Position numbers and translations under genes: made by a program
In this document: in pieces, positions 7,180 through 34,099 of the stretch
How positions within the stretch are numbered: the stretch's first letter is position 1
How the letters are laid out: each line of letters begins with the position of its first letter
Notes under the pieces: model-generated
Told to the model about the DNA's origin: nothing
Seen by the model: only the letters and a program-made list of their open reading frames with translations
Database searches by the model: none
IMG/VR virus record: IMGVR_UViG_3300044626_000173
Location: 1 to 37,922 of that record
DNA: 37,922 bases
DNA from: a virus
Direction: 5' to 3' (one strand)

Positions 7180-8235
7180 ATGGCTATTCTTACTGAACCT
7201 AATCTTAGCGGTCGCGGTCTACGCGAAGATCTGATGGACATGATTGCGCTCGTTGACGCAAAAGACACTCCTTTTACGTCGATGGCTCGCAAAGGCAGCA
7301 AGCCCGGGAATATGTACTTCCGCTGGCAGTCTGACTCGCTTCCTACCCCTCAGGTAGGTGGTGTGGTGGACGGCACGGACGTTTCCACCTACGACAACTA
7401 CGTCGTTGGCTACCGTGCTGAACTCGCAAACTACGCACAGGTGTTCCGCCGTGCAGTGCGCGTGTCCCGCCTTACTCAGGACATCGCTGATGTCGCAGGT
7501 GTGCGTGACGAACTGGCTGACAACGTCAGCAAGGGGATCACTGGCATCAAGCGTGACATGGAAGCGACCTTCACGTCGAACCAGCTCTCGCAGCAGGACA
7601 ACGGCACGACTCAGGCTTACCGCACCGCTGGTGTGCAGACCTGGATCAGCAACGCTGGTACTGGCACACCAACTCCTGGAGACATCCCTTCGATCTTCCG
7701 TACTCCTACGACCTCGATCCTCACTGGTGCATCCAGCGGGTTGACGGATGCAGGTGTGCAGGGACTTCTGAAGTCGATCTTCGACCAGACTGGTCACTAC
7801 ACCAGCTTCGACGCCATCGTCGGAACTGACCTGAAGCGTGCTTTCACCGGCCTGCTCGGAACAACGGCTCTGACGACTGTCAGCAATGCTACTAACACGC
7901 TTGCTGCTGGTGCTACCAAGGTGCAGACCTTCCAGCGTGACGCTGCGGCTGACACCTTCATTCAGAGCTTGGACGTGTTCCAAGGTGACTTCGGAACGGT
8001 GCGTCTGCATCCTTCCACGTTCATCGGAACTGTGTCTGGCACAAGCTGGACGCCAACTCCTTATAAAGGTCTTGTGCTTGACATGAACCTCATCGAGGTT
8101 CGCTACGGCGGCAACGTCGCTAACGTCACTGCACTGCCAGATTACGGTGGTGGCCCTGCTCGCTTGATCGAAGCAGTTGCTGGCTTGGTTGTCGGCAACC
8201 CGCTCGGCCTCGGGAAATTCGACTACTCCTCCTAG
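7180..8235 (+). CDS. Major capsid protein, SU10/DUF5309 type
   Basis: A 351-residue protein with the N-terminal pattern DTPFTSMARKG, then WQSDSLPTP, a long helical region ending in RRAVRVS, and beta-rich domains thereafter. This arrangement matches the DUF5309 (SU10-type) HK97-fold capsid family as I remember it. It follows a scaffold-like gene after 35 bases. Codon choice is more GC-rich than its neighbours and dominated by preferred-looking codons, as expected for the most abundant virion protein. There is no Shine-Dalgarno: the start is preceded by a T/A-rich stretch (CTCTTATTT). It ends in two consecutive TAG codons, which would ensure tight termination. Confidence 0.9.
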   Translation: MAILTEPNLSGRGLREDLMDMIALVDAKDTPFTSMARKGSKPGNMYFRWQSDSLPTPQVGGVVDGTDVSTYDNYVVGYRAELANYAQVFRRAVRVSRLTQDIADVAGVRDELADNVSKGITGIKRDMEATFTSNQLSQQDNGTTQAYRTAGVQTWISNAGTGTPTPGDIPSIFRTPTTSILTGASSGLTDAGVQGLLKSIFDQTGHYTSFDAIVGTDLKRAFTGLLGTTALTTVSNATNTLAAGATKVQTFQRDAAADTFIQSLDVFQGDFGTVRLHPSTFIGTVSGTSWTPTPYKGLVLDMNLIEVRYGGNVANVTALPDYGGGPARLIEAVAGLVVGNPLGLGKFDYSS

Positions 8236-27893: not shown

Positions 27894-28646
27894 ATGGCGA
27901 ACATAACACGGAAGTGGAAACGCTTCCTTGCAGTATCATGCAGCCACGGCTTCATGGCCGATCAGGCTGTACTCAAGGAAGTACTCCGCTTTCGTGACCG
28001 ATGGAAGCCGGACACGACGCTGCATCTTGGTGATGCCATCGATATGACGTGTCTGCGCACCGGCGCTATCACCAACGACAGTCACGATGCTACGGTTGAC
28101 CCAGAGGCCGATCTCAATGATGGCCTAGCGTTTATCTCTGCACTTCGTCCACAACACTACCTGCTTGGCAACCATGAGGCTCGGCTTGTCACGCTAATGA
28201 GCCACCCTAAAGCGATTATCTCGGCTCTAGCGACTCGCGTCTATCACCAGATCCACGACCGGGCTAAGTCGATTAAATGCAAGGTGTACGACTACAAGCT
28301 TAAGACTGGATTTGTCGGCTTAGGTGACGCTCTCTTCCAGCACGGCTATCTGCACAGCGAGCAGGCACTCAGAGACAGCGCCGAGCGCATGTGTCACGGC
28401 AAGTACACCAAGCTTGTCATGGGGCACATCCACCGCGTACAAATCGCTGAAGGTCGGCGCATTAAAAGTGTCACTGGCTACTCTGTTGGGTGGCTTGGAG
28501 ATCCAGAAATGGCTGGCTACGCGGAGAATAGGATCGCAACTACGACCTGGAGCAGAGGTTGGGCGTGGGGTGAATATACTGACAACGAGACAATTGTATG
28601 GCTGACAAAAGAACTAAAGGACGGAAGCTTCAAGCTGCCGGTGTAG
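27894..28646 (+). CDS. Calcineurin-like metallophosphoesterase
   Basis: A 250-residue enzyme-like protein with most motifs of the two-metal phosphoesterase fold: LHLGDAID (D47), LLGNHE (N93, H94), FQHG (H150) and MGHIHR (H178, H180). The first motif, normally D-x-H, reads SCSHG here (C16-S17-H18), so one metal-binding Asp appears replaced by Cys. The substrate cannot be read from sequence; phage relatives act on nucleic-acid ends or small phosphodiesters. It lies at the border between virion and early genes, and the HTH gene at 28598 overlaps its last 49 bases. Confidence 0.82.
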   Translation: MANITRKWKRFLAVSCSHGFMADQAVLKEVLRFRDRWKPDTTLHLGDAIDMTCLRTGAITNDSHDATVDPEADLNDGLAFISALRPQHYLLGNHEARLVTLMSHPKAIISALATRVYHQIHDRAKSIKCKVYDYKLKTGFVGLGDALFQHGYLHSEQALRDSAERMCHGKYTKLVMGHIHRVQIAEGRRIKSVTGYSVGWLGDPEMAGYAENRIATTTWSRGWAWGEYTDNETIVWLTKELKDGSFKLPV

Positions 28647-28855
28647 AGAAAGACTGGCTTACGGAACTTGCGCAGACCTTGAACATAAGGCCCGCTCCAG
28701 CAGGCTGGTACACGATTACGCAGATTGCTGACCGGCTTGGAATTGGCCGCACCGCTGTGCGCACTATCCTCAGTGAGCGCAAAGCTTCCGCTCAACGCTT
28801 TTACCAAGTGACAAGTGACGGCAGGAAGGTTCTACTGACACACTACCAACTATGA
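28598..28855 (+). CDS. Helix-turn-helix protein, putative regulator
   Basis: An 85-residue protein with a helix-turn-helix near residues 39-60 (YTITQIADRLGIGRTAVRTI), preceded by a short helical region and followed by a small beta wing (FYQVTSDGRKVLLT). This winged design suggests DNA binding, perhaps control of the early operon that begins here. It overlaps the phosphoesterase gene upstream and, by four bases, the acidic gene downstream. Confidence 0.7.
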   Translation: MADKRTKGRKLQAAGVEKDWLTELAQTLNIRPAPAGWYTITQIADRLGIGRTAVRTILSERKASAQRFYQVTSDGRKVLLTHYQL

Positions 28856-29837: not shown

Positions 29838-30019
29838 AAGCTAAAGACATCGCCCAGCTCGCAAACGTGTCACTTCAGACGGTCCTAAAGTGGGCGCGCG
29901 AAAACCGTATTCCTCATCATCGCATCAGCCCACGCTGCTTGCGGTTCTCGATCGAGGAGGTCAACCACTGGCTGCAACAAAAGCGCGATGCCAATAAACT
30001 CAAGAGCCAAGGGGTGTAG
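29831..30019 (+). CDS. Excisionase/MerR-like HTH protein
   Basis: A 62-residue protein: VKAKDIAQLANVSLQTVLKW forms an N-terminal helix-turn-helix, followed by RISPRCLRFSIEEVNHWLQQ, the wing and helix pattern of small excisionase-family DNA-binding domains. It may bend DNA or regulate the early operon. It has a strong GAGGAGG upstream and overlaps the ssDNA-binding gene by seven bases. No integrase was found, so an excisionase function proper is not supported. Confidence 0.78.
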   Translation: MVKAKDIAQLANVSLQTVLKWARENRIPHHRISPRCLRFSIEEVNHWLQQKRDANKLKSQGV

Positions 30020-30317
30020 GGGTGAGCGTCTCTGGCGTGACGAGTTGCGTGCGGCGGGCTTTACGGCCCGTCGCGGGCAACAGTTCGCCGGAGGCACGGA
30101 CAGCCCGGACGTGATCTGTGAGGAGCTTGCAGCACTACACCAAGAGGTGAAGTTCGTTGAGAACCTGAATCTGATTAAAGCCACTGAGCAGGCTGAACGT
30201 GACGGCGCTGGCAAGGCGTGGATTGTGGCTCACAAAAAGAATCGTACACCTTGGCTAGTGACGATGAACAGCGAACTGTTTTTTCGGCTACTAAGGGATG
30301 GGATGGAGGGTATTTAA
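29988..30317 (+). CDS. PD-(D/E)xK nuclease, resolvase-like
   Basis: A 109-residue protein with the layout of small PD-(D/E)xK nucleases: an N-terminal helix with E13 in GCRGER, then D41 in GTDSPDVI, then E53-V-K55 in HQEVKF, followed by a helix with KATEQAERD and a final strand (GKAWIVAHKKN). Size and motif spacing fit Holliday-junction-type or VRR-like nucleases. A role in resolving replication or recombination intermediates before packaging is likely but inferred. It overlaps the HTH gene by 32 bases. Confidence 0.75.
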   Translation: MPINSRAKGCRGERLWRDELRAAGFTARRGQQFAGGTDSPDVICEELAALHQEVKFVENLNLIKATEQAERDGAGKAWIVAHKKNRTPWLVTMNSELFFRLLRDGMEGI

Positions 30318-30318
30318 C

Positions 30319-30579
30319 ATGATTGCTGACCTTGAACAATCAGAGCAATCGCTTGAGCTTTTAGAAAAAGCACTGGCCATGCTTGACGAAAGAGATCGAG
30401 TTATCCTGGTTGCCCGCTATGGGCTAGACGGCACAAAGCCCAAGACCTTGTTTGAGACTGGTGCTTTGATACGTCGAACTAGGGAGCGAGTTGCAACTCT
30501 TCAGCAAAAAGCATTGCGCAGATTACGTTTGCAAATAAGCAATCTTAAAGGCTTTGCTTACGTTGAAGGCTGCAAGTAA
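30319..30579 (+). CDS. Stand-alone sigma-70 region 4-like protein
   Basis: An 86-residue protein. Residues ~26-76 align by eye with sigma-70 region 4: LDERDRVILVARYGLDG, then RRTRERVATLQQKALRRLR, which corresponds to the bacterial pattern of R-E-R-x-R-Q-I-x-x-K-A-L-x-K-L-R. Region 4 binds the -35 element and the beta-flap of RNA polymerase. No region 2 is present, so it cannot act as a full sigma factor. It might redirect host polymerase, like T4 gp33 in principle. I chose ATG 30319, one base after the previous stop with GGAGGG ten bases upstream; an in-frame ATG at 30298 is the alternative. Confidence 0.82.
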   Translation: MIADLEQSEQSLELLEKALAMLDERDRVILVARYGLDGTKPKTLFETGALIRRTRERVATLQQKALRRLRLQISNLKGFAYVEGCK

Positions 30580-30587
30580 ACACTTCT

Positions 30588-30619
30588 GCACCATGCAGGG
30601 GTGCGCCTGCACAACGCAC
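30588..30619 (+). promoter_or_regulatory. Competing hairpins before the loader-like gene
   Basis: GCACC (30588-30592) can pair with GGTGC (30600-30604), while GTGCG (30601-30605) can pair with CGCAC (30615-30619). The two stems share bases and exclude each other. ACATTTT and the start codon at 30627 follow. Stems are only 5 bp, so a chance occurrence is possible. Confidence 0.3.
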
Positions 30620-30626
30620 ACATTTT

Positions 30627-31139
30627 ATGAACATCAGCATCAATATAACATACACGTCAGGAACCAAGGTCGAGCTTATCGTCCCGCTGGAAGAGCCCTG
30701 CAAGATTGCGAGCGAACCACAGCCAGAGTCGCAGCCAGAGTCAACGCCGGTACAGCCTGCGCAGGACTTGGCAGATGCGATTCGCAAGTACGACATCTCG
30801 CCAACATTTCCAAGCAACGCCGCACTCGATGGCCAGACTCACAACATGTACAACATGACGTTTGTCACTCAAGATGGCAAAGAGTGGACGGTGCCAGCAG
30901 GCTTGATGAAAGACCTCGTCATCATCTACGGCGAGAAGACTGTCGAGCAGGAGCTACTCAAGGCCCACGCCTGGCTTGAGGCGGACACACACCGGCGCAA
31001 GACTTCACGCGGCATGGGTCGCTTCCTCAACGGCTGGCTTTCCCGAGCATCATCAATGGTGCGTACACCGATCAAGACCCTACTCAAACGTGACACTAGC
31101 TTACTAGTAACCAATGGAAGTACACAAGAAAGCTGGTAG
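30627..31139 (+). CDS. Replication initiator or helicase-loader-like protein
   Basis: A 170-residue protein. After a beta-like N-terminus and a Pro/Gln/Glu-rich linker (residues ~30-48), the C-terminal ~75 residues contain a helical segment with EQELLKAHAWLEAD and SRGMGRFLNGWLSRA. This WL...RR...R(F/I)xNxWL pattern is common at the end of phage replication proteins acting with DnaB-type helicases. The helicase N-part begins 26 bases before its stop. Function as loader is inferred from motif and neighbour. Confidence 0.6.
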   Translation: MNISINITYTSGTKVELIVPLEEPCKIASEPQPESQPESTPVQPAQDLADAIRKYDISPTFPSNAALDGQTHNMYNMTFVTQDGKEWTVPAGLMKDLVIIYGEKTVEQELLKAHAWLEADTHRRKTSRGMGRFLNGWLSRASSMVRTPIKTLLKRDTSLLVTNGSTQESW

Positions 31140-31824
31140 ACGTAGGCCGGTGGAGTTGCCGCCTGACACGGTGGTCCCAACTGCGAGCGAGGCAGAGCGT
31201 GGTATAGCGTCGATTGCGCTCAACCACCCAGAGGTGTTCTTGCATCACATTAGCGAGAAGAACTTCAAGGTGAGTGACATCTTCGATCCGCTCAGTCACC
31301 GGGTATGCGAGATCATCTTGCAGCAGCAGTCCCGCAATGCTAGCTCGGAGATTCGCGTGGTATTTGAGAAGGTGCGCGAGACTCTGCCGGGCACGGAATT
31401 TCACCAACTCAGCGACCTGTACACGCTCATGCCTATTGCGGCGGCGATTGGCGACCTCGTAGACATCGTTAAGAACACGGCCAAACGTCGCACCTTGCAG
31501 CATGTGGCCTACGAGACGCTGATGGCCATTAGCGACGCTACCGTGCAGACGCCGGAGCTACTCAGTGATGTGGTGATGAAGGTTGAGGGGCTATCTCGTG
31601 AGCTTGCTCCGCCGAAAGTGATGGACACTAAGGCGCTCCTGCTCAACGCGCTGACACGCTACGAGACAGGCGACGATGAGTCCATGCGGATAAAGACTGG
31701 ATATTCTGCTATCGACAACATCTGTCCGATCAGATACGGAGACTTCGTAGTGATCGGTGGCGAAACCAAATCGGGCAAAACCATGCTGGCACTCAACATA
31801 ATTGCAAACTTAATAAATGAATAA
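31114..31824 (+). CDS. DnaB-type replicative helicase, N-terminal part (split gene)
   Basis: A 236-residue protein covering the helical N-terminal domain (about residues 22-130), the linker helix and the start of the RecA-like motor: GYSAIDNICP, then Walker A GGETKSGKT (residues 215-223, K222). It stops 13 codons later, after the P-loop helix, with ...LINE. The rest of the motor is encoded 1.7 kb downstream at 33515 and begins with the next expected strand. In intact relatives these pieces form one protein of about 430-460 residues, which is what the two parts add up to. Each half alone lacks a complete ATPase site. The next gene starts within the last eight bases. Confidence 0.88.
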   Translation: MEVHKKAGRRRPVELPPDTVVPTASEAERGIASIALNHPEVFLHHISEKNFKVSDIFDPLSHRVCEIILQQQSRNASSEIRVVFEKVRETLPGTEFHQLSDLYTLMPIAAAIGDLVDIVKNTAKRRTLQHVAYETLMAISDATVQTPELLSDVVMKVEGLSRELAPPKVMDTKALLLNALTRYETGDDESMRIKTGYSAIDNICPIRYGDFVVIGGETKSGKTMLALNIIANLINE

Positions 31825-32915: not shown

Positions 32916-32916
32916 T

Positions 32917-33279
32917 ATGCAAGACATACCAAGAAATCAACTGCTGGATAATATAGCTCAAGGCTGGACTGTTCGCAGAAAAGATTGGGTAGAAGCAAAA
33001 GTATTCTGCCTACATCCTTATAAGCCTAAAGGTTCAACTGTCATTTTTCTTGATTGGGCTGAGTTGGTGCATCAAGACGATTGGGAAGGCTGGCCGCCGC
33101 CTGTGTGCATGTATTCTGATCACTCAATTGAACCTGCCCTTGGCAAGTTAAACAAAATTAAAAAGGGCTTTGTGCGGAGAAAGGCATGGCAATCAGAAGA
33201 ACACATTCAATTTGGCCAAAAACATATATCTTTAGAACCCTCGGATATCCTTGCCATGGATTGGGAGGTATGGGCATGA
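32917..33279 (+). CDS. DUF2829/Tad2-like protein, possible anti-defence
   Basis: A 120-residue protein with two similar halves: QGWTVRRKDWVEAKVFCL near residue 15 and KKGFVRRKAWQ near residue 86, the latter followed by LEPSDILAMDWEVW at the C-terminus. The RRKxW start and the D-x-x-A-x-D-W-E-V end resemble DUF2829, the family that includes Tad2, which sequesters the signal of Thoeris defence. The spacing is unusual and I cannot align it fully, so the anti-Thoeris role is a hypothesis. It has a strong GGGAGGAGG upstream and lies between the helicase halves. Confidence 0.5.
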   Translation: MQDIPRNQLLDNIAQGWTVRRKDWVEAKVFCLHPYKPKGSTVIFLDWAELVHQDDWEGWPPPVCMYSDHSIEPALGKLNKIKKGFVRRKAWQSEEHIQFGQKHISLEPSDILAMDWEVWA

Positions 33280-33518
33280 GCGACTGGGTACTCATCCGCC
33301 GCACCAACGTGCTGCAAAACGTGGAGCTGCCACGTCCAAAGAAGACGCAGGACGTCATCTGTATCGGCCCGAAGGACGCGCTAGGCTCAAAGATGGAGGC
33401 GCTTATGCTTCTGCCGGAGAATCAATCGACGGATCTTATCGAGGTGAAGTATGTGCTTGAGCCGTACACGGGCCAGCACAGTCACACGTCTGCAAGGCCA
33501 ATGAATGGACTGCGATGA
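33276..33518 (+). CDS. Hypothetical protein between the helicase halves
   Basis: An 80-residue ORF from ATG 33276 (ATGA overlap with the preceding stop) to a TGA that itself overlaps the start of the helicase C-part. The N-terminal half is beta-like with RRTNVLQNVELPRPKKTQD; the C-terminal part is polar. No family recognised. The two ATGA junctions suggest it is translated in step with its neighbours. Confidence 0.6.
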   Translation: MSDWVLIRRTNVLQNVELPRPKKTQDVICIGPKDALGSKMEALMLLPENQSTDLIEVKYVLEPYTGQHSHTSARPMNGLR

Positions 33519-34099
33519 ACAAAGGAATACTCGTCATCTCTTTGGAGATGCCCGCTAATCAGATCATCGACCGTCTCGTCGCCCGGTTAGGCAGCGTTAG
33601 CCTGCGTGCGCTCGCTGAAGGTGCGAAGCACGAGCGCGACATCCGAGGCGTCCACAGTGCCATCCAGAAGCTCAATAATAGCCGTCTCGTGGTGCGCGAC
33701 GATCTCTATGACATCGCTAACATCTGCGCCACTGCGAGGGCTATGGCGAAGTCGCCGGATGGCCTCGGCGTGCTGTTCGTAGACTACATTCAGCTTGTGC
33801 GCTGTGACCTTGGCAAGGATAGCAGCCGTGAGCGTGAGGTGGCCGAGGTCAGCCGGAGCCTGCGACTGCTTGGCATCGAATTAGGTTGCTTAGTCATCTC
33901 GATTACGCAACTAAATGAGCAGGGTAAAGCTCGCGAAAGTCGCGCAATCGGGCAAGACGCTACAGCCGTGATGGTTGTGAAGTTGTCCGACGACCCGGAG
34001 TTTCGCGAGATTGGGATACCCATACAACGAAACGGTCCGTGCGGCGTGAGTGCAAACTTACGTTTCACCGGCAAGACAGCAACATTCCACAATGAATAA
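33515..34099 (+). CDS. DnaB-type replicative helicase, C-terminal part (split gene)
   Basis: A 194-residue protein beginning MNKGILVISLEMP, the strand and catalytic-Glu motif (E11) that in DnaB directly follow the Walker A helix. It also has Walker B VLFVDYIQL (D90), the H3 region VISITQLNEQG, the RAIGQDATAVM segment (normally S-x-x-I-x-Q-D) and QRNGPCG near the end, so the rest of the RecA-like motor is complete. It has no Walker A of its own. It starts in ATGA shared with the upstream gene, without Shine-Dalgarno. It probably co-assembles with the N-part; alternatives are a spliced intervening sequence or a decaying gene. Confidence 0.88.
   Translation: MNKGILVISLEMPANQIIDRLVARLGSVSLRALAEGAKHERDIRGVHSAIQKLNNSRLVVRDDLYDIANICATARAMAKSPDGLGVLFVDYIQLVRCDLGKDSSREREVAEVSRSLRLLGIELGCLVISITQLNEQGKARESRAIGQDATAVMVVKLSDDPEFREIGIPIQRNGPCGVSANLRFTGKTATFHNE

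Follow-up and report, generated by a model that had tools for sequence, protein, structure and literature searches.

A stand-alone sigma-70 region 4 protein with replaced -35-reading residues on an optional cassette of an environmental phage

A small gene in the replication module of a phage known from environmental DNA only encodes an 86-residue protein that consists of sigma-70 region 4 alone, lies in an exchangeable cassette that most close relatives lack, and has replaced two residues of the helix that reads the -35 element. The record is a linear 37.9 kb IMG/VR phage contig, analysed here over its full 37,922 nucleotides (the window). We assign a probability of roughly 0.5 to the reading that the product is an accessory protein, carried on a swapped single-gene cassette, which would compete with region 4 of the host sigma factor at the beta-flap of RNA polymerase with altered -35 reading.

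Results

The reading frame (30319..30579, plus strand) opens with the ATG at 30319, closes with the stop codon at 30577-30579 and contains RERVATLQQKALRRLR. It begins 1 nt past the stop of a gene for a RusA-like Holliday junction resolvase, within the 3' end of which lies a Shine-Dalgarno-like GGAGGG (30305..30310, plus strand; 8 nt 5' of the ATG), and with initiation at an alternative in-frame ATG at 30298 the protein would be 7 amino acids longer. The frame is kept in four related contigs at amino acid identities of 92-98%; variable codons of the core (residues 13-73) comprise five synonymous versus one non-synonymous, conservative change, and the core is under purifying selection.

The match to sigma-70 region 4 is far above chance. 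Residues 18-70 (30370..30528, plus strand) match Pfam Sigma70_r4 at 4e-9 and 36.2 bits (cut-off 24.1) over profile positions 1-49 of 50, the sole Pfam family to reach its cut-off; the match is limited to region 4, and region 2 is absent from the protein. PHROG 351, 'RNA polymerase sigma factor', matches at 4e-11, and every one of the best sequence matches among solved structures is a sigma region 4, from RpoD, SigA, RpoS and SigB (1tty, E 4e-10). An AlphaFold model built on a 55-sequence alignment that included sigma sequences is helical and confident (pLDDT 87.9, with residues 84-86 below 50), superseding a model from four near-identical sequences only (pLDDT 66). VIA-align placed it on residues 340-423 of Thermus thermophilus sigmaA with Z 11.2 over 82 residues (rmsd 3.7), and Foldseek gave the same protein a probability of 1.00, with further matches that include the -35 DNA complex 1ku7 and the sigma4/flap-tip chimeras 7kuf, 8cwr and 8d5v. 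Relative to region 4 of T. maritima and T. aquaticus, the frame of the helix-turn-helix (HTH) and the first helix of region 4.1 are kept, the latter as ELLEKALAML, close to EELEKALSKL in T. aquaticus. In sigma the flap tip is touched by H5; the corresponding C-terminal stretch of the present protein has diverged, and its end is modelled poorly. The preliminary description, made from the sequence alone, had recognised the protein as region 4 alone and proposed a structural comparison; the identification stands, with a Pfam score above the cut-off and a pLDDT 88 model that fits sigmaA region 4 by both structural methods.

The second HTH helix, RERVATLQQK (residues 55-64; 30481..30510, plus strand), was aligned to Escherichia coli numbering. 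R55 and E56 correspond to E. coli R584 and E585 and are kept, as is R57, and A59 and T60 occupy the positions of R588 and Q589. R584 and E585 contact positions -31 and -33, and changes at R588 relax specificity at -33 (PMC2613000), while Q589 is a -35-reading residue (PMC8407463). R588 and Q589 are invariant in all 51 other viral region-4 sequences compared, a set that is not wholly unbiased, having been retrieved by a reading-helix pattern allowing R/A/H and Q/T, and both are lost in all four members of the present family. Residue 45 is Phe where Glu is usual, and residue 53 is Arg in place of the usual Val or Ile. The protein thus shares with the primary sigma factor (RpoD/SigA) its region 4 fold, the region 4.1 helix and R584/E585, and differs from it in the Ala/Thr replacement of R588/Q589, in Phe45 and in the absence of regions 1-3, without which it would not be able to open promoters. 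Because R584/E585 are kept, R588/Q589 are replaced and the family shows a single conservative change in the core, the protein looks like a functional domain with altered DNA reading and not like a relic.

Stand-alone region-4 genes for products of 73-101 amino acids were found at about 15 of the 76 viral loci examined, some of them cut by a contig end. These proteins (e.g., L149, L134, L142, L162 and L194) resemble ours in architecture, and region 2 was likewise not found in the 13 records with such genes that were searched; in contrast to ours, they keep TRER[IV]RQ, and they have different gene neighbours. Our search of the open-access literature found no study of phage proteins consisting of region 4 only. 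Stand-alone region-4 proteins therefore already exist as a kind that is apparently unstudied, and the altered reading helix together with the cassette habit marks the present protein as a variant of it.

Using the neighbouring gene for the N-terminal half of DnaB as bait, 80 related loci were obtained. Gene order in the relatives is kept as SSB-like, HTH, RusA, a variable slot, a gene of unassigned function, DnaB-N, a gene, a RecE-like exonuclease, a gene and DnaB-C. The slot is bounded on the left by the RusA-like gene (29988..30317; PHROG 244, 4e-16) and on the right by the conserved unassigned gene (30627..31139), and the interval between them varies among relatives from about 50 to more than 900 nt. 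Within it lies a conserved 37-nt linker, CTGCACCA.GCAGGGG.GCG.CTGCACAACGC.CACA (30586..30622), present once in nearly every close relative with the slot visible, with cassettes placed before or after it. Because the slot of ten relatives (e.g., L026, L033 and L037) holds the linker alone, the cassette borders can be placed at approximately 30308..30585; all these features are on the plus strand. The replication module of the window has two variable stretches, about 30308-30622, which holds the linker, and 32916-33515, and in relatives such stretches carry HNH-like endonucleases and small proteins of the MPKIK, MTKQQ and MKTEK families.

The whole slot is visible in 65 close relatives. Three of these (the window, G001 and G004) have the region-4 gene, and the slots of the other 62, ten of them clean empty sites, are without it; further copies occur in the fragment G003 and in G002, whose gene does not differ from the one in G001. 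As far as these sequences reach, the gene is optional in the phage group. This distribution does not support the earlier proposal that the protein was the foremost candidate for switching transcription from early to late, a role for which presence throughout the group would be expected. The late genes of these 62 of 65 relatives cannot depend on the region-4 gene, which is missing from that place, and no other region-4 match above the cut-off was found in 50 relatives; on this evidence the protein cannot be the switch of the group, and nothing in the sequences points to a switch role in the carriers alone. In favour of a switch, no full sigma factor was found in the record or in any carrier of the gene, and Sigma70_r2 (region 2) was absent from 47 related records including the 43.9 kb G001, although a highly diverged copy could escape such a search. 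We judge it very improbable that the protein is this phage's early-to-late switch. A full sigma factor in a part of the genome outside the record, which the preliminary description had named as evidence against its reading, did not appear in G001 or the other relatives. A search of 11 records for single-subunit RNA polymerase (PF00940) returned no match and was uncontrolled, the control genomes having given none either. Weak Sigma70_r4 matches at 28709-28774 of the window and in G045, the latter in an HNH-like protein, look like generic HTHs; the first falls within 28598-28855, which encodes a small HTH protein with a sub-threshold Sigma70_r4 score of 15.5 bits, common in relatives and probably a generic HTH.

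At the nucleotide level the region-4 gene is 95-99% identical between phages, versus about 80-85% for neighbouring genes. At its 4-fold-degenerate sites, 36 to 39 out of 38 to 40 are identical; set against the backbone, the identity is 0.95 versus 0.58. Most genes fall at 0.4-0.7, and the RusA gene directly upstream at 0.43-0.46. Identity of 95-97% at such sites might suggest an RNA or DNA element hidden within the gene as the cause of its extreme conservation. However, the unrelated slot cassettes of the MPKIK, MTKQQ and MKTEK families are alike in this respect (0.91-1.00 versus 0.54-0.68 for the backbone), the folding z-score is just -1.9, inverted repeats are weak only and no long alternative frame was seen; we find a hidden element scarcely credible. 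No such excess was seen in the four backbone genes tested. Since the other slot cassettes are equally conserved, recent exchange of cassettes between phages is the simplest account; the conserved flanks presumably served as sites of recombination. The GC content of the region-4 gene (45.6%, versus 54-56% in its neighbours) fits an outside origin. Between the window and G001, high 4-fold-site identity (0.90) was also observed at 7180-8235, by its place probably the major capsid protein gene, for which recombination or codon bias is possible; the terminase and portal genes of the same pair stand at about 0.6.

Discussion

Several phages target the junction of sigma4 and the beta-flap with small proteins, among them AsiA of T4, gp39 of P23-45 and P7 of Xp10 (PMC7403470, PMC2988021). 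The present protein differs from these in being a copy of sigma4 and not a sigma4 binder. The phage proteins known to target sigma4 bear no relation to sigma, and AsiA, gp39 and P7 are, to our knowledge, not homologues of region 4. The late co-activator gp33 of T4, positioned on the beta-flap, would occupy the sigma4 flap site, as the present protein is predicted to do, and works with the sigma-like gp55; unlike that system, no gp55-like partner was found here, and the region-4 gene is optional.

The region-4 gene is probably co-transcribed with the replication genes, and its product would be translated from the Shine-Dalgarno site inside RusA. Beyond the domain identity, conservation and optional status observed above, we infer that the beta-flap of host RNA polymerase, the usual seat of host sigma region 4, is the most likely docking site of the protein; a protein of this fold would be expected to bind there, and flap binding is putative here. 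Docking could weaken -35-dependent host transcription or tilt the polymerase to promoters that do without the usual -35 contact, and the changes of R588 to Ala and Q589 to Thr in the reading helix may relax or change the preferred sequence. The protein would then be an optional aid to host takeover, and not an essential switch. We offer only tentatively, and as somewhat unlikely, the fuller proposal that a mobile single-gene cassette spreads a sigma-region-4 decoy: seated on the beta-flap in place of host sigma4 and reading another -35 sequence, the decoy would give its carrier an optional means of redirecting the host polymerase. Counting against the accessory, flap-competing reading, the affinity of region 4 for the flap may be low once it is no longer tethered by the remainder of sigma, and the stretch equivalent to H5 has diverged, as described above.

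The loss of R588/Q589 could equally reflect a new DNA target with no polymerase contact. The protein might then be a plain DNA-binding regulator, a region-4 HTH freed from the polymerase that acts, through DNA binding alone, as repressor or activator at a promoter of the phage or the host, as the changes at A59, T60, F45 and R53 alongside the retention of R55, E56 and R57 in all four family members would allow; a pure DNA binder, however, would not need region 4.1 or the first helix, which faces the flap, and both are conserved; we hold this alternative to be rather unlikely. There is a small chance that the gene is a functionless remnant, in decay, of a sigma gene captured from a host, as its GC content below that of its neighbours and its sporadic presence might suggest; the intact frame with its own Shine-Dalgarno site, the preponderance of synonymous over non-synonymous variable codons in the core and the unusual residues common to all four members argue otherwise. 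Smaller still is the chance that the protein is a subunit of a two-part sigma factor, acting with a separate phage region-2 protein in the manner of SigO/RsoA of Bacillus subtilis. Region 4 alone would indeed need a partner for initiation, yet the Sigma70_r2 searches found none, either in the related records, where a diverged region 2 could be missed, or in those with other stand-alone region-4 genes.

As a captured sigma4 with changed -35-reading residues that travels as optional cargo, the protein would amount to a simple dominant-negative of natural origin and a ready means of learning what region 4 by itself can do on RNA polymerase. The coexistence of natural carriers and non-carriers makes the effect of the gene testable. 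A hint of the host comes from L101, a 13 kb contig binned as Pedosphaera that holds a relative of the terminase (67%) together with the exonuclease and DnaB-C; this hint is weak, and too weak to name a host.

The replication module also contains a DnaB-type replicative helicase that is split into two genes (31114-31824 and 33515-34099) just past Walker A, with Pfam DnaB_C positions 2-44 in the first and 49-255 in the second, and with the RecE-like exonuclease and other genes between the halves. No intein was seen by eye. Both halves are visible at 67 loci, the window included, and every one of these has the split, with the two parts 1.3-3.6 kb apart, even in relatives of only about 58% identity; a RecA-core helicase made as two polypeptides would be unusual.
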